From: Anaerolineae bacterium
GTDB taxonomy: Bacteria; Chloroflexota; Anaerolineae; Aggregatilineales; Aggregatilineaceae
Length of the DNA: 64,000 nucleotides
Assembly: GCA_018432315.1 (NCBI GenBank)
Contig: JAHDLB010000006.1
Location: 124,001 to 188,000 of the forward strand
Direction of reading: 5' to 3'
Below, one piece after another: positions 1,050-7,746 of the stretch (the stretch's first letter is position 1; each line of letters starts with the position of its first letter). Below the pieces are notes generated by a model. It was not told where the DNA came from and did no database searches. It was given only the letters and a program-made list of their open reading frames with translations. A program made the position numbers and the translations under genes.

Positions 1050-2780
1050 ATGACACAGACGACCCAGACACAGCTAACCGTTCGCATGGACGACCGGCCC
1101 GCCACTCTGTTGGCCTGCGCCCAGGAACTGGCCGGCTCAGCGTCTAATCGTACCGCGCTGACGCTGTTCGCGCCCAACGAAAGCCATTCGATCACCTATC
1201 GCGAGTTTTTCGACCAGGCGGCCCGCTATGCCCGCGCGCTCGAGAAAGCGGGTGTGCAGTCCGGCGACCTGGTCGTGCTGGTGCTCCAGCATGGGCCGGA
1301 CGTGCTGTACGGGTTCTGGGGAGCGATGCTGGTCGGTGCCGTCCCGTCGATCTTCCCATTCCTGACCCCCAAGCTCGATCCGGACCGCTACTACGAAAGC
1401 GTGCGCGCCCTGGTCGAGCTGTCCGCCGTCAAGGCCGTCGTCACCTACCCGGACATGCAAGGCGCGCTCGAACACCATCTGGACGGCATTCCCACGCTGG
1501 GCGCCATCCTGAACGTGACCGATCTCGAGCCGGAAGGCACGCTCGACGACTACCTGGGCCGCGATCTGGCCCGGCCCGGCGACACGGCGTTTCTGCAGCA
1601 CTCGTCCGGCAGCACGGGGCTGCAAAAAGGCGTGATGCTGTCGCACGCCGCCGTGCTCAACCAGGTGGCGGCCTACAGCGCCGCCATCGACCTGTCGACC
1701 GACGACGTGATCGTGAGCTGGCTGCCGCTCTACCACGACATGGGGTTGATCGCGGGCTTCATCATGCCCATCATCCAGGGCATCCCCCTGGTGCTCATGT
1801 CGCCCTTCGACTGGGTGCGCGAGCCTCACATCCTGCTGCACGCCATCCAGCGCCACGGCGGGACGTTGTGCTGGCTGCCAAATTTCGCCTACAGCTTCCT
1901 GGCGACCCGCGTCCGCAAATCGATGCTCGACGGCCTGGACCTGTCCAGCCTGCGCGCGGTGATCAACTGCTCGGAGCCGGTGCGCGACGAGAGTCACGCG
2001 GCGTTCGCAGCCAAATACACGCCCTTCGGCCTGCCTCGGAATGCCCTGGCGACGTGCTACGCCATGGCCGAGAACACCTTCGCCGTGACGCAAAGCCCGA
2101 TCGGGACTCTCCCCACGCTGGACGTCATCGACCGCGCGCTGCTCATGGAGCGCCGGGTCGCCCAGCCTTCGGACGGCGCAAACGGGCCGGCGACGACGAT
2201 GGTGTCGTGCGGCAAGCCGATCCCCAACACCGAGATCCGCGTCGTGGATGCTGAGCGCCGCGACCTGCCCGAGCGCCACGTGGGCGAGATCGCGCTGCGC
2301 AGCGATTGCATGCTCACCGGCTACTACCACCGCGAAGACGCCACCGCTCAGGCTATGCAGGACGGCTGGTATTTCACCGGCGACCTGGGCTACATCGCAG
2401 ACGGCGAGCTGTACATCACAGGCCGCCAGAAAGACCTGATCATCGTCGGCGGGAAGAACATCTACCCGCAGGACATCGAGCACATCCTGAACGCCATCCC
2501 CGGCGTGCATCCGGGCCGCACGGTGGCCTTCGGGGTCATGAACGAGTCGCTGGGGACCGAAGACGTCGCCGTCATCTGCGAGGTCGAGACGAATGATCCC
2601 GCCGAGCGCGACCAGATCACCAAAGAGATTCGCTCGCAGATCGCGCAGACGACCGACGTGATGGCCCATTACGTCCACCTGGTCGGCGCAGGCTGGCTGA
2701 TCAAGACGTCGAGCGGCAAGATCGCCCGCGCGGCCAACCGCGAGAAATTCATGCAAGAAGTGCTCGGCAAGATATCCTGA
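1050..2780 (+). CDS. AMP-dependent acyl ligase (fatty-acyl-AMP ligase-like)
   Basis: A 576-residue adenylate-forming enzyme of the ANL superfamily, expected to activate a carboxylic acid with ATP to an acyl-AMP and pass it to CoA or a carrier protein. The P-loop-like motif HSSGSTGLQKGVMLSH lies near residue 180, the hinge region YFTGDLGYIADGELYITGR near 450, and the final catalytic lysine motif KTSSGKIAR at the C-terminus. The combination FLQHSSGSTGLQKGV resembles fatty-acyl-AMP ligases rather than acetyl-CoA synthetases. Longer upstream in-frame extension has no ribosome site; ATG 1050 follows the TATAAT at 984. The stop codon is part of TGAGGAGG, which forms the ribosome site of the 45-residue peptide gene 12 nt downstream, so the two are translationally linked. 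Substrate cannot be read from the sequence. Confidence 0.85.
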   Translation: MTQTTQTQLTVRMDDRPATLLACAQELAGSASNRTALTLFAPNESHSITYREFFDQAARYARALEKAGVQSGDLVVLVLQHGPDVLYGFWGAMLVGAVPSIFPFLTPKLDPDRYYESVRALVELSAVKAVVTYPDMQGALEHHLDGIPTLGAILNVTDLEPEGTLDDYLGRDLARPGDTAFLQHSSGSTGLQKGVMLSHAAVLNQVAAYSAAIDLSTDDVIVSWLPLYHDMGLIAGFIMPIIQGIPLVLMSPFDWVREPHILLHAIQRHGGTLCWLPNFAYSFLATRVRKSMLDGLDLSSLRAVINCSEPVRDESHAAFAAKYTPFGLPRNALATCYAMAENTFAVTQSPIGTLPTLDVIDRALLMERRVAQPSDGANGPATTMVSCGKPIPNTEIRVVDAERRDLPERHVGEIALRSDCMLTGYYHREDATAQAMQDGWYFTGDLGYIADGELYITGRQKDLIIVGGKNIYPQDIEHILNAIPGVHPGRTVAFGVMNESLGTEDVAVICEVETNDPAERDQITKEIRSQIAQTTDVMAHYVHLVGAGWLIKTSSGKIARAANREKFMQEVLGKIS

Positions 2781-2792
2781 GGAGGCTGCACC

Positions 2793-2930
2793 ATGCCCCT
2801 GGTCACCCGTGTTCTGAGGCGCGCCTTCAGCCGCGAGAATGTGTTTGCGCTGTTGCTCTGCACGATCCTGGTCCTGCTGATCATCGTGACCGCGGACTCG
2901 TCGCCGCAATGGATCTATCAGGGATTTTAA
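2793..2930 (+). CDS. 45-residue membrane micropeptide with DltX-like C-terminus
   Basis: ATG 2793 follows a strong GGAGG site (2781-2785) that overlaps the end of the acyl-ligase gene. The product is a basic N-terminus (RVLRRAFSREN), one hydrophobic segment at residues 18-32 (VFALLLCTILVLLII), and an outside tail ending PQWIYQGF. DltX, the small membrane protein of the D-alanylation pathway, has the same size and topology and, from memory, ends in an aromatic-I-Y-x-x-F motif whose tyrosine accepts the acyl group from DltC/DltB. The neighbour is an acyl-AMP ligase, the same enzyme class as DltA. No DltB-like MBOAT, carrier protein or DltD is present in the window. The gene is clearly translated-looking; the acyl-acceptor role is inference. 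Confidence 0.7.
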   Translation: MPLVTRVLRRAFSRENVFALLLCTILVLLIIVTADSSPQWIYQGF

Positions 2931-3031: not shown

Positions 3032-3385
3032 ATGCACGAACTCGGCGTGACCCAGAGTCTCCTCGATATCGCCCTTCACCACGGGCGCCAGGCCGGCGCA
3101 GCCCGAATCAACGAGCTCAACCTGGTGGTGGGCGAGCTGTCGAGCATCGTCGATGACTCCGTCCAGTTTTACTGGGACATGCTCAGCGAGGGGACCATCG
3201 CGCAGGGCGCCCGGCTGAACTTCAAGCGCGTGCCTGCCGAGCTGCACTGTCACGACTGCGAGCATCGCTTTCCGCTCAATCACCAGGAATACGTCTGCCC
3301 GATGTGCGGCAGCGCCAACCTCACCGTGTCCGGCGGCGAGGAGTTCTTTCTCGAAAGTATCGATGTCGATCTAGACGAAACGTGA
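3032..3385 (+). CDS. hypA: Hydrogenase/urease nickel chaperone HypA
   Basis: A 117-residue HypA/HybF protein that delivers nickel to the large subunit of [NiFe] hydrogenases. The N-terminus MHEL supplies the nickel-binding His2. A zinc site is formed by two CxxC pairs, C73-HD-C76 and C89-PM-C92, spaced as in the family. Length is standard. It is the first gene of hypA-hypB-hypF-hypC-hypD, with hypB 15 nt downstream. The ribosome site is weak (AAGAAG). Confidence 0.96.
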   Translation: MHELGVTQSLLDIALHHGRQAGAARINELNLVVGELSSIVDDSVQFYWDMLSEGTIAQGARLNFKRVPAELHCHDCEHRFPLNHQEYVCPMCGSANLTVSGGEEFFLESIDVDLDET

Positions 3386-3400
3386 GGAACGGTATCACCT

Positions 3401-4066
3401 ATGCCGAATACAATTCCCGTAGTCGAGAATATCCTGAGCGCCAACGACCAGATCGCAACCCAGACGCGCGCCCAGTTGGATCGGGACGGTGTGCTGGCGA
3501 TCAACGTGATGGCGTCACCGGGCGGGGGGAAGACCAGCGTCATCCTCAAGACAATCGAGGCGCTCCACGATCAGGTACGCATCGGCGTCATGGATGGCGA
3601 CATCGTGCCGCTCGATCTGGAGAAGATCGCCGAGCTGGGCATCCCCGTCTCGCTGATCAACACCGGCGGTAACTGCCATCTCGACGCCAACATGGTTCAC
3701 GGCGCCCTTCCCTCGCTCCAACTCGACGCCCTCGATCTGCTGATCATCGAGAACGTGGGCAACCTGATCTGCCCCGCCGCGTTCAAGTTGGGCACCCATC
3801 TCAACATCGTGATCGCCAGCGTTCCGGAGGGCGACGACAAACCGTACAAATACCCGGCCATGTTCAAGGGCGCCGACGTGCTGCTGCTCAACAAAATGGA
3901 CCTGTGCGAGTACCAGGATTTCAACGTGGACTACTTCCGGCACGGCGTAGAGGTGCTCAATCCCGGCCTGGCCTTCTTCCCGATCTCGTGCCGCACCGGC
4001 GAGGGCTTCGACGCCTGGTTGGACTGGCTGCGGGACCGTGTCACCCAACGGAGCAGCGTCGGATAA
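3401..4066 (+). CDS. hypB: Hydrogenase nickel incorporation GTPase HypB
   Basis: A 221-residue SIMIBI-class GTPase that drives nickel insertion together with HypA. Walker A is ASPGGGKTS at residues 39-46, and the metal site following NTGG has the conserved Cys92-His93 (NCHLDANMV). The base-recognition motif NKMD is near residue 165. The N-terminus has no histidine-rich nickel-storage stretch or CxxCGC high-affinity site, so it is the minimal form. AGGAA lies upstream of ATG 3401. The next gene, hypF, begins at or just after its stop codon. Confidence 0.95.
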   Translation: MPNTIPVVENILSANDQIATQTRAQLDRDGVLAINVMASPGGGKTSVILKTIEALHDQVRIGVMDGDIVPLDLEKIAELGIPVSLINTGGNCHLDANMVHGALPSLQLDALDLLIIENVGNLICPAAFKLGTHLNIVIASVPEGDDKPYKYPAMFKGADVLLLNKMDLCEYQDFNVDYFRHGVEVLNPGLAFFPISCRTGEGFDAWLDWLRDRVTQRSSVG

Positions 4067-4073
4067 ACCCACC

Positions 4074-6383
4074 GTGACCGAATCCGCCCTTCGCATCCAC
4101 GTCACCGGCGTCGTCCAGGGTGTGGGGTTTCGCCCCTTCATCTACGGGCTTGCCACCCGCTACGCGCTCACGGGTTGGGTTCGCAACACCTCGTCCGGCG
4201 TCGATATCGAGGTGTGCGGCGCGCCCGACGCGCTGGATGCGTTCGCCGAGGCCATCACCGCCGAGGCCCCACCGCTGTCGCGGATCGAAGCCGTGCAGGC
4301 GCATCGCGTCACCACCAACGGCTACACGCGCTTCGAGATCCAGCACAGCGCGGCCCAGGACGGCGCCTACCAGCCGATTTCGCCCGACGTCGCGACCTGT
4401 GACGACTGTCTGGCCGAGGTCTTCGACCCGTCCAACCGGCGCTACCGCTACGCCTTCACCAACTGCACCAACTGCGGGCCGCGCTTCACGATCATCCAGG
4501 ACATCCCCTACGACCGCCCGGCCACGACCATGGCGCCGTTCGCCATGTGCCCGGACTGTCAGGCGGAATACGACGATCCACTCGACCGCCGGTTTCACGC
4601 CCAACCCAACGCGTGCCCCGTCTGCGGGCCGCACCTGGAGCTGATCGCCAGCCCGGACCAGCCACCGCTGCCCGGCTGGGACAGCCTGCCCGAAGACCCT
4701 ATCGCCGCCACCCGCGCGCTGCTCGTGGCGGGCCACATCGTGGCGATCAAGGGGCTGGGCGGGTTTCACCTGGCCTGCGACGCCACCAACCCCGACGCCG
4801 TGCGCGAGCTGCGCCGCCGCAAAGGGCGCGCCGCCAAGCCGTTCGCGGTGATGATGCCCGATCTGGCGACGGTGGCCCGGTTCTGCGATCTCACGCCGTC
4901 CGGCGAGCGGGCGCTGACCGGGCGCGAGCGCCCCATCATGCTCACCCCGCTCAAGCCGCACACCGCCCTCGCCGGAGACGTCGCGCCCGGCCTGCGCGAG
5001 CTGGGCGTGATGCTGCCCTACACGCCGCTGCACCACCTGTTGTTGGAGCCGGCGCCCGGCTTCCCTCCCGCGCTCGTCATGACCAGCGGCAATTTCAGCG
5101 AGGAGCCAATCGCCACCGCCAACGAAGACGCCATCGACCGCCTCAGCGGGCTGGCCGACGCGTTTCTGCTGCACAACCGCGACATCCACATCCGCTGTGA
5201 CGACTCGGTCGTGAAGGCGCTGCCCACGCACGTCCTGCCGCTGCGCCGGTCGCGCGGGTACGCGCCGTACCCGGTGCCGCTGCCGTTCGAGTCACCGCCC
5301 CTGCTCGCCACCGGCGCCGAGCTGAAGAACACCTTCTGCCTCGCGCGCGATCGTCACGCCTTCATGAGCCAGCACATCGGCGACCTGTCGAATTACGACG
5401 CGCTGCGCTCGTACCGGCACAGCATCGAGCACCTCAGCCGCCTCTTTCGCGTGGAGCCGGAGATCGTCGCCCACGACGCCCACCCGGACTACGTCGCCAC
5501 GCGGTACGCCGCGGGCCGCCCGGAGAACAAGATCGCCGTCCAGCACCACCACGCGCACCTGGCGAGCTGCCTGGCGGAGCACCGGCTTCCGCTCGAAGAA
5601 CCGGCCATCGGCGTCATTTTCGACGGCACCGGCCTGGGGCCGGATAACGCCATTTGGGGCGGCGAAATCCTGATCGGCAGTTACGCGTGGTATCGCCGTT
5701 TCGCCCACCTGAGCTACGTTCCGCTGCCGGGTGGCGACGCGGCCACGCTGCGCCCGTACCGGACGGCGCTCGCGCACCTGTGGCAGGCGGGCATTCCCTG
5801 GGAATCCGATCTCGCCCCCTGCCGCGCTGCCGCCCAGCAGGAACGGACGATCCTGCTCCAGCAGCTTGAGAAACAACTCAACGCGCCGCTCACGTCCAGC
5901 ATGGGCCGCCTGTTCGACGCGGTCGCCTCCCTGCTGGACGTGCTCCAGGTCGTCACCTACGAAGCCCAGGCCGCGATCTGGCTGGAAGCCAACACCGATC
6001 CCGGCGAAACCGGCACCTATCAGTTCGACATCAGCCGGGCGGCGAACGGCGATCCGCTCCGGATCGATCCGGCGCCCGTGCTAGCGGCGGTGCTGCACGA
6101 CCGGCGCCGGGGGATCGCGGCGCCGGCGATTGCGGCGCGCTTTCACAACGCGGTGGCCGGGGCCATCCACGAGGCGTGTCTCATGGCCCGGCGCAGCACG
6201 GGCCTGTCCAGTGTGGTCCTCAGCGGCGGCGTGTTCCAGAATACCACGCTGCTACTAAAGACGATTCCCCTGCTCGAGGGCGCGGGGTTCACCGTGTATA
6301 CGCATATGCTGGTCCCGCCCAACGACGGCGGGATCGCGCTCGGACAGGCGGCCATTGCGGCCTGCATGGTCCAGCATGGATGA
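4074..6383 (+). CDS. hypF: Carbamoyltransferase HypF
   Basis: A 769-residue enzyme making the cyanide ligands of the NiFe centre: it uses carbamoyl phosphate and ATP to carbamoylate the C-terminal cysteine of HypE. Domains in order are acylphosphatase (VQGVGFRPFIYGLA, residues 11-24), two zinc fingers (CDDC and NCTNCGPRF; CPDC and CPVCGPH), a YrdC-like domain (IKGLGGFHLACDATN) and a Kae1-like domain (QHHHAHLASCLAEH; VIFDGTGLGPDNAIWGGE; LSGGVFQN). All signature regions are intact. GTG 4074 follows the hypB stop at 4066; an alternative GTG at 4038 lies inside hypB and would add 12 residues. Its partner HypE is not encoded in the window. Confidence 0.95.
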   Translation: MTESALRIHVTGVVQGVGFRPFIYGLATRYALTGWVRNTSSGVDIEVCGAPDALDAFAEAITAEAPPLSRIEAVQAHRVTTNGYTRFEIQHSAAQDGAYQPISPDVATCDDCLAEVFDPSNRRYRYAFTNCTNCGPRFTIIQDIPYDRPATTMAPFAMCPDCQAEYDDPLDRRFHAQPNACPVCGPHLELIASPDQPPLPGWDSLPEDPIAATRALLVAGHIVAIKGLGGFHLACDATNPDAVRELRRRKGRAAKPFAVMMPDLATVARFCDLTPSGERALTGRERPIMLTPLKPHTALAGDVAPGLRELGVMLPYTPLHHLLLEPAPGFPPALVMTSGNFSEEPIATANEDAIDRLSGLADAFLLHNRDIHIRCDDSVVKALPTHVLPLRRSRGYAPYPVPLPFESPPLLATGAELKNTFCLARDRHAFMSQHIGDLSNYDALRSYRHSIEHLSRLFRVEPEIVAHDAHPDYVATRYAAGRPENKIAVQHHHAHLASCLAEHRLPLEEPAIGVIFDGTGLGPDNAIWGGEILIGSYAWYRRFAHLSYVPLPGGDAATLRPYRTALAHLWQAGIPWESDLAPCRAAAQQERTILLQQLEKQLNAPLTSSMGRLFDAVASLLDVLQVVTYEAQAAIWLEANTDPGETGTYQFDISRAANGDPLRIDPAPVLAAVLHDRRRGIAAPAIAARFHNAVAGAIHEACLMARRSTGLSSVVLSGGVFQNTTLLLKTIPLLEGAGFTVYTHMLVPPNDGGIALGQAAIAACMVQHG

Positions 6384-6397
6384 TCGGAGAGAACCTG

Positions 6398-6652
6398 ATG
6401 TGTTTGGGAATTCCCGGCAAGATCACTGAAATCTACGAAACAGGCGGCCTCAAGATGGGCAAGGTCGATTTTGGCGGCGTCGTCCGCGAGACGTGCCTCG
6501 CCTACGTCCCCGAAGCCCAAATCGGCGATTACACCATCGTCCACGTGGGGTTTGCCCTGAACCTCATCGACGAGGCCGAAGCGCAAAAGACGCTCGAACT
6601 GCTCGACGAGATCGGGCTGTTGGATGAAGAATTAGGGACTGGGGCCGAATGA
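6398..6652 (+). CDS. hypC: Hydrogenase assembly chaperone HypC
   Basis: An 84-residue HypC/HybG chaperone that binds HypD and carries the Fe(CN)2CO unit to the hydrogenase large subunit. It starts MCLGIPGKI with the essential Cys2. ATG 6398 is chosen because this motif must be N-terminal and GGAGAGA lies 5-11 nt upstream; an earlier in-frame ATG at 6380 would bury Cys2. The stop TGA overlaps the ATG of hypD (ATGA). Confidence 0.96.
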
Positions 6653-7746
6653 AATACGTCACCGAATACCGCGACGCGGCCCGCGTGCGCGACGTGCTGG
6701 ACGAGATCCACCGGGTCACGACCGGTTCCTGGCGGCTGATGGAGGTCTGCGGCGGCCAGACGCACTCGATCATCCGGCACGGCATCGATCAACTGCTGCC
6801 GGATTCTATCGAGATGATTCACGGGCCCGGCTGCCCGGTCTGCGTCACGCCCCAGGAGCTGATCGATCAGGCAATCGCCATCGCGTCGCTGCCCAACACG
6901 ATCATGGTGTCCTTCGGCGACATGCTGCGCGTGCCGGGCTCGCAAAAGGACCTGTTCCAGGTCAAAGCCGAAGGCGGCGACGTCCGCGTCGTGTATTCGC
7001 CGCTGGAATGCATCAAGATCGCCCAGGACAATCCCGACCGCGAGGTCGTATTCTTCGGCGTCGGCTTCGAGACCACCGCCCCCGCCAACGCGATGGCGAT
7101 CGCCCAGGCCAAACAGCTTGGCATCCCCAACTTCTCGATGTTGGTCTCTCACGTGCGCGTGCCGCCCGTGCTCGACGCCTTGCTAAGCGCCGACGATGTG
7201 CACGTCCAGGGATTCCTGCTCGCCGGGCACGTGTGCGCCGTCATGGGCTACTGGGAATATCACCCGCTGGTCGAGAAATACGGCGTGCCGATGGTCGTCA
7301 CCGGCTTCGAACCGCTCGACATCGTGCGCGGCATCGAGATGACGATCCGCCAGTTGGAAGAGGGCCGCGCCGCCGTCGAAAACGCCTACAGCCGCGTCGT
7401 GGTCGAAGGCGGCAACAAGCCCGCCATGACCATCATCAACACCGTTTTCGAGGAATGCGACCGCAACTGGCGCGGCATCGGCAATATCCCGCGCAGCGGC
7501 TGGCAGCTCAGCCCGCCGTTCCACGCGTACGACGCCGCCCGCCGCTTCGCCGTCGATCACATCCGCACGGAGGAATCGCCGCTGTGCCACGCCGGGGAAG
7601 TGCTCAAAGGGGTGATGAAGCCCAACGAGTGCCCGGCGTTCGGCAAGGAATGCACGCCGCGCAAGCCGCTCGGCGCGCCGATGGTGTCGTCCGAAGGCGC
7701 GTGCGCCGCGTACTACAACTTTGGCCGTTTCGAGGCGTCCACCTAG
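6649..7746 (+). CDS. hypD: Hydrogenase maturation Fe-S protein HypD
   Basis: A 365-residue scaffold for the Fe(CN)2CO cofactor that works with HypC and HypE. Conserved motifs are VCGGQTHSI near residue 35, [10 protein letters not shown] near residue 60, and the C-terminal [4Fe-4S] cysteines in [15 protein letters not shown] with the following [10 protein letters not shown]. It overlaps hypC by four bases, implying coupled translation. It is the last hyp gene here; the next gene is an unrelated membrane protein. Confidence 0.96.

Follow-up and report, generated by a model that had tools for sequence, protein, structure and literature searches.

A ligase gene and a small membrane peptide

The window analyzed here is a stretch of 64,000 nucleotides from an Anaerolineae bacterium (family Aggregatilineaceae; GCA_018432315.1, contig JAHDLB010000006.1, positions 124,001 to 188,000 of the forward strand), whose genome we call G000. 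Two genes near its start carry the following features:

1050 to 2780, plus strand: fatty acyl-AMP ligase (FAAL; putative DltA role), a 576 aa ORF with no internal stop, AMP-binding domain PF00501 at E 7.5e-62
2779 to 2785, plus strand: Shine-Dalgarno sequence GAGGAGG of the peptide, read directly, overlapping the ligase stop TGA (2778 to 2780)
2793 to 2930, plus strand: predicted DltX-like membrane microprotein, a free acyl-shuttle tail; 45 aa, with class-wide homologues that precede tail-less MBOATs
2844 to 2894, plus strand: hydrophobic helix of the peptide, one stretch, from hydropathy and not from a TM predictor
2910 to 2927, plus strand: C-terminal hexapeptide WIYQGF, conserved by column entropies, with Tyr42 (2916 to 2918) as proposed acyl acceptor

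A preliminary description of this DNA had reported a 45-residue single-helix peptide after an acyl-AMP ligase, and the ORF with its one hydrophobic stretch bears this out. It had also placed the ribosome site over the end of the ligase gene: GAGGAGG does overlap the stop codon, with 7 nt between it and the ATG of the peptide, but the genes themselves do not overlap and are separated by a 12 bp gap. In translation the peptide ends PQWIYQGF. Since the gene 5′ of the ligase lies on the minus strand and a hydrogenase maturation cluster lies 3′ of the peptide, the ligase and peptide look like a two-gene unit. The cluster (window positions 3032 to 7746), in which hypA, hypB, hypF, hypC and hypD were recognized by eye on the same strand, shows no visible tie to the acylation genes.

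Judged by its closest curated models and solved relatives, the ligase is a FAAL, a member of an enzyme family that loads carrier proteins. The best NCBIfam models are of the PRK07768/PRK09192 type, long-chain/fatty acyl-AMP ligases, matched below their curated cut-offs, and in the best 60 of 76 PDB matches the nearest relatives are FAALs (e.g. 3kxw, 3pbk) and no DltA entry is named. We take 3kxw and 7r7e-g to be FAALs; their PDB record names differ. Ordinary D-alanylation, in which the ligase would load D-alanine or another amino acid, would suit the Dlt-like character of the whole architecture described below, but the agreement of two libraries on FAALs as closest relatives makes it improbable, and we continue with the ligase as a FAAL.

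Conservation and distribution of the peptide

A scan for small ORFs behind the ligase recovered the peptide only in G000 and in G232, a genome of the same family, and so pointed to poor conservation; this was overturned by a profile search, in which a two-sequence profile, at E values no worse than 1.3e-5, picked up the peptide in 95 of the 396 class genomes searched. In a sample of the phylum it was present in 34 of 400 genomes, all from its own order or class, the share of the 400 outside the class not being stated. The ligase occurs in 91 of 298 class genomes at E ≤ 1e-60 (the 298 lie, judging from their genome handles, within the 396), and the 72 of these with at least 45% identity form a list, drawn up by hand, that was used for co-occurrence. 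Across the 298 genomes ligase and peptide occur together in 67, the ligase without the peptide in 5 of its 72, the peptide without the ligase in 4 of its 71, and neither in 222 (p 2.4e-55). In 80 loci retrieved through the ligase only, the C-terminal pattern [WF][IVL]YxxF occurs in 14 of 179 small hydrophobic ORFs, versus 1 of 17,900 shuffled ones.

Behind its ligase, G232 has a 46-aa version of the peptide, 69% identical to that of the window. The last 16 codons of the two differ by six synonymous changes and one amino-acid change, and by this comparison the tail is under purifying selection relative to G232. The tail tyrosine is present in all of 100 peptide loci, which were retrieved with a profile in which the tail is included, 20 of them being chosen for a nearby ligase; L162 (no peptide), L242 (a duplicate) and L243 (a ligase locus) were left out of the 100, and some ligase-anchored loci repeat genomes of other loci, e.g. 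L056 and L159. The C-terminal six residues read WIYQGF in 90 loci, FIYQGF in 3, WIYQNF in 2, and WIYQAF, WVYGGF, WMYQGF, WIYQGY and FIY-stop-GF in one each, with W at the first position in 96 and F in 4. Four loci that failed the tail motif were read directly (WIYQGY, WMYQGF, a WIYQGF where the contig ends, and a tail broken by an in-frame stop behind FIY). The last is L239:1483-1602, in genome G021, where a TAA stands in frame inside the tail.

The preliminary description had likened PQWIYQGF to the aromatic-I-Y-x-x-F end of DltX and had asked whether the last six residues are conserved. Few positions of the peptide are as well conserved as these: in 80 representatives, admitted only with the tail motif, P-8, Y-4 and F-1 do not vary and the rest of the tail hardly does, with column entropies of 0–0.27 bits over the last six. 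Most helix positions vary. The same representatives carry on average 2.25 K+R in the up to nine residues before the helix versus 0.06 in the last 14, and a basic N side with a non-basic C side places the tail outside by the positive-inside rule, which suggests an N-in/C-out topology.

The peptide could instead be a structural or regulatory subunit of an MBOAT, serving its stability or the docking of a carrier, with a tyrosine that is not acylated. Small membrane subunits often stabilize their partners, and E-31 and A-27, on the helix side, are nearly invariant as well. The longest conserved run, however, is P-x-W-I-Y-Q-G-F at the extreme C-terminus, which is similar to the FXYXXF tails that PMC12148441 gives for DltX and PatA, and such a tail is built into MBOATs that adjoin FAALs without the peptide (see below). 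We consider the subunit explanation quite unlikely and read the peptide as an acyl-shuttle tail.

Family libraries did not name the peptide: against Pfam and NCBIfam there was no match over any cut-off, and its profile drew a single row from the PDB sequences, at E 0.95. The comparison with PF12459 (DltX), proposed in the preliminary description, fell short of the cut-off, with one of 40 peptides matching at E 0.033 and no PF12459 match in the window genome. The set A6 consists of 40 rows picked by hand.

The usual neighbor of the peptide is an MBOAT

Among loci L001 to L111, the peptide lies directly 3′ of the ligase only in G000 and G232; elsewhere it mostly stands before an MBOAT gene. Among 88 peptides followed by 1.5 kb or more of sequence, again selected for the tail motif, 69 have a tail-less MBOAT downstream on the same strand within 300 bp and 81 have one within 8 kb, the other 7 having none within 8 kb. 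If the 20 regions picked for a nearby ligase are set aside, the counts are 50 of 68 within 300 bp and 61 of 68 within 8 kb. From the opposite direction, 14 of the 80 loci found by the ligase hold a tail-less MBOAT, and all 13 of those with upstream sequence have a peptide ending in WIYQGF there. All 65 of the 298 genomes with a tail-less MBOAT at E ≤ 1e-100 contain the peptide, and 6 of the 71 peptide genomes have no such MBOAT at that threshold. MBOAT and ligase occur together in 62 genomes, the MBOAT alone in 3, the ligase alone in 10, and neither in 223. The usual neighbor of the peptide is thus an MBOAT rather than the ligase: the coupling of peptide and ligase claimed earlier stands as co-occurrence in 67 of 298 genomes, but by position the peptide belongs with the MBOAT.

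Genes for the MBOAT, a carrier and an SGNH protein are linked to the peptide in many genomes; the first two are those that the preliminary description had proposed to look for. The full order of peptide, MBOAT, SGNH protein, carrier and FAAL (X-B-D-C-A) was seen in 30 of the 70 loci long enough to show it, being complete in 17 of 20 regions chosen for ligase proximity and in 13 of the 50 remaining loci, which offer 6.5 kb or more of downstream sequence. Since only 13 of the 50 unselected regions hold the full order, the parts of the pathway are often scattered. In the genomes G107, G222, G242 and G333 of the same order, peptide, MBOAT and SGNH protein are divergent from carrier and FAAL.

Identity of the MBOAT, SGNH and carrier proteins

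The MBOAT of locus L144 matches PF03062 at E 1e-20, and the tail-less MBOATs seen in relatives share an invariant WHG (with the conserved His) and have C-termini that lack the tail. The only PDB sequences that the MBOAT profile matches at E ≤ 0.01 are those of DltB (6bug at 6e-61, 8jem at 1e-60), and a structural model (pLDDT 90) fits DltB best, with Z 29.7 and rmsd 3.1 over 382 aligned residues; PORCN is next at Z 23.7. The carrier of L144 matches PF00550 over the cut-off (E 2.3e-6), and in many loci the carrier adjoins the FAAL.

The assignment of the SGNH protein is looser. That of L144 matches PF13472 below the cut-off, at 4.5e-4, that of L262 has no Pfam match, and neither matches the DltD family model, while G90, D91, S92 and H346 are invariant in 16 rows. 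Its model (pLDDT 80) aligns to DltD over 276–280 residues (Z 13.1–13.3, rmsd 4.8–5.3), to plain SGNH esterases over about 176 residues (best Z 14.7) and to PatB over about 175 (Z 12.8–12.9). Since the model fits many SGNH enzymes, and plain esterases at a higher Z than DltD, we call it an SGNH protein for which DltD is only a candidate identity.

Free and fused tails

Unlike the peptide-linked MBOATs, other MBOATs end in a tail of their own: DFIYFQF (L144, L055), PFVYQGF and PFVYQSF (L050), VPFIYFQF (L058) and AFVYQQF (L060), among others. MBOATs with such tails (DFIYFQF, PFVYQGF, VPFIYFQF and more) adjoin FAALs in loci that have no free peptide. From these C-termini it appears that tail-less MBOATs go with a free tail, and that other FAAL-adjacent MBOATs carry their own. 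Ligases of one family accompany both forms, which supports a modular tail. In a further case, L070:9585-10972 (Polyangiaceae), carrier and FAAL are followed by a tail-less MBOAT whose gene overlaps, at an ATGA, that of a separate peptide; this peptide ends in GFIYGNF and has two hydrophobic stretches by eye, apparently an independent split of the tail. Counting against the rule is L075:7944-11107 (deltaproteobacterial): around its FAAL, carrier and tail-less MBOAT no tail peptide could be found.

Two of these loci hold more than one fused-tail MBOAT. In L050:3644-9683, from an Anaerolinea MAG, two such MBOATs, a homologue of SGNH-like genes from contig C50 of G000 (described below), a carrier and a FAAL stand in a row. 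In L144:521-5393 (genome G027), two more lie just 5′ of the five-gene run, each followed by a related gene, one of which has weak DUF1574/GDSL matches.

The window genome and its sister

The preliminary description had supposed that the remaining parts lie elsewhere in the genome, and a carrier and an MBOAT were indeed found on another contig of G000. This MBOAT, on C50, is the single one found in the genome and has a fused FVYQGF tail; it is followed by the carrier (PF00550 at E 0.017, below the cut-off; self-match 99%), and the two genes 5′ of it show SGNH-like motifs by eye, have no Pfam match, and are homologous to the gene beside the L050 MBOATs. It is 55–56% identical to the two fused-tail MBOATs beside ACP and FAAL in L050. 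Neither a tail-less MBOAT nor a matching SGNH gene was found in G000 (66 contigs, 99.4% complete by tool). G232, of a sister genus, has a tail-less MBOAT with its SGNH gene on contig C7, FAAL and peptide on C1 and the carrier on C25. The carriers of the two genomes are 66% identical, and the genes that follow them are homologous (54% over 440 residues). In a synteny check for a lost MBOAT, the flanks of the G232 MBOAT-SGNH pair proved to be rearranged in G000. The two sisters thus differ in MBOAT type, fused-tail in G000 and tail-less in G232, and the MBOAT of the pathway in G000 may be the fused-tail one on C50.

One consequence could be that the free peptide of G000 is a relic, its tail-less MBOAT and SGNH partners having been lost, with the FAAL now feeding the ACP and the fused-tail MBOAT on C50. 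The sole MBOAT found in G000, its place beside an ACP and behind SGNH-like genes, its resemblance to the L050 proteins and the retention of the tail-less pair in G232 would all be accounted for in this way. On the other hand, the peptide is intact, its ribosome site is strong and its tail, compared with that of G232, shows purifying selection, and since G000 is in 66 contigs the missing MBOAT-SGNH pair could be present. We hold the loss to be a tangible possibility, if a somewhat doubtful one, and the reading developed below is that of a free peptide working as a tail.

A proposed acyl relay

We consider it likely that the two genes, for ligase (A) and peptide (X), belong to a transmembrane acylation pathway of the Dlt type in Anaerolineae. 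The reading of the preliminary description, a Dlt-related acylation system, is supported, since the last six residues of the peptide are conserved and MBOAT, carrier and SGNH genes are linked to it in many genomes. The peptide is probably the tail piece of a multi-part machine that carries an acid of fatty type through the membrane to a surface molecule. According to PMC12148441 (2025), neither a carrier nor a DltX-like microprotein occurs in MBOAT/SGNH pathways other than Dlt; since both are present here with a FAAL, we propose a relay from FAAL to carrier, MBOAT, peptide Tyr, SGNH Ser and acceptor.

The gene set, linkage, co-occurrence and folds were read from sequence, and the catalytic steps, kind of acid and acceptor that we infer would be as follows. 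The FAAL would activate a carboxylic acid, fatty or related, by turning it into acyl-AMP, and would load it onto the small acyl carrier protein. On the cytoplasmic side, the DltB-like MBOAT would take the acyl group from the carrier and transfer it to the Tyr of the WIYQGF tail, the single-helix peptide standing in for the tail that this MBOAT lacks. The acyl-tyrosine tail would then pass the group to the Ser of the membrane-anchored SGNH protein outside the membrane, and the SGNH protein would esterify an envelope polymer or glycolipid.

We lean slightly towards a wider view, in which this is a widespread carrier-dependent fatty-acyl shuttle that takes the microprotein acyl-Tyr relay beyond the D-alanylation of teichoic acids and esterifies an envelope polymer of Anaerolineae. 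Over evolutionary time its tail would switch between the free form and the MBOAT-fused form, with no change of ligase or carrier. The proposal predicts acyl-modified surface molecules in Chloroflexota and offers, for a peptide family named by no library searched, a function that can be tested.

Comparison with known systems

In a literature search for which most subscription papers were beyond reach, we found no account of an acyl-AMP ligase with an MBOAT, of dltB D-alanylation in Chloroflexi or of an exopolysaccharide system with MBOAT, adenylation and carrier genes, and nothing related for O-acyltransferases and the cell envelope in Anaerolineae. The expression 'DltX-like' does appear in the literature, in at least one paper.

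A close parallel is Dlt itself, with a ligase, a carrier, a tail-less MBOAT of DltB fold, a single-helix microprotein with a C-terminal aromatic-I-Y-x-x-F and an SGNH-fold protein. As in DltX, the peptide is a short single-helix protein with an FXYXXF-type C-terminal hexapeptide and an invariant Tyr. Unlike in Dlt, the ligase here is of FAAL type, the peptide lies below the PF12459 cut-off, the gene order is X-B-D-C-A where complete and often scattered, and the system is found in Anaerolineae. FAALs of lipopeptide/polyketide and mycobacterial lipid synthesis belong to the same enzyme family, but here the FAAL is tied to a transmembrane MBOAT/SGNH pair and a microprotein.

PMC12148441 describes two forms of the acyl-tyrosine relay, that of Dlt, whose microprotein is free, and that of Pat and its relatives, whose tail is fused; it presents the acyl-Tyr in the PatA tail as demonstrated and summarizes the DltX relay. 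PatA/PatB, AlgIJFX, WssHIFG and CcsHI share with the present system an MBOAT, an SGNH protein and an FXYXXF-type tail. According to that source, however, theirs are fused-tail systems with an acyl-CoA donor and with neither carrier nor microprotein, whereas the system here has a carrier, a ligase and a free tail. The fused-tail MBOATs that stand beside FAAL and ACP in L050, or beside a carrier only on C50 of G000, are intermediate between the Dlt and Pat types.
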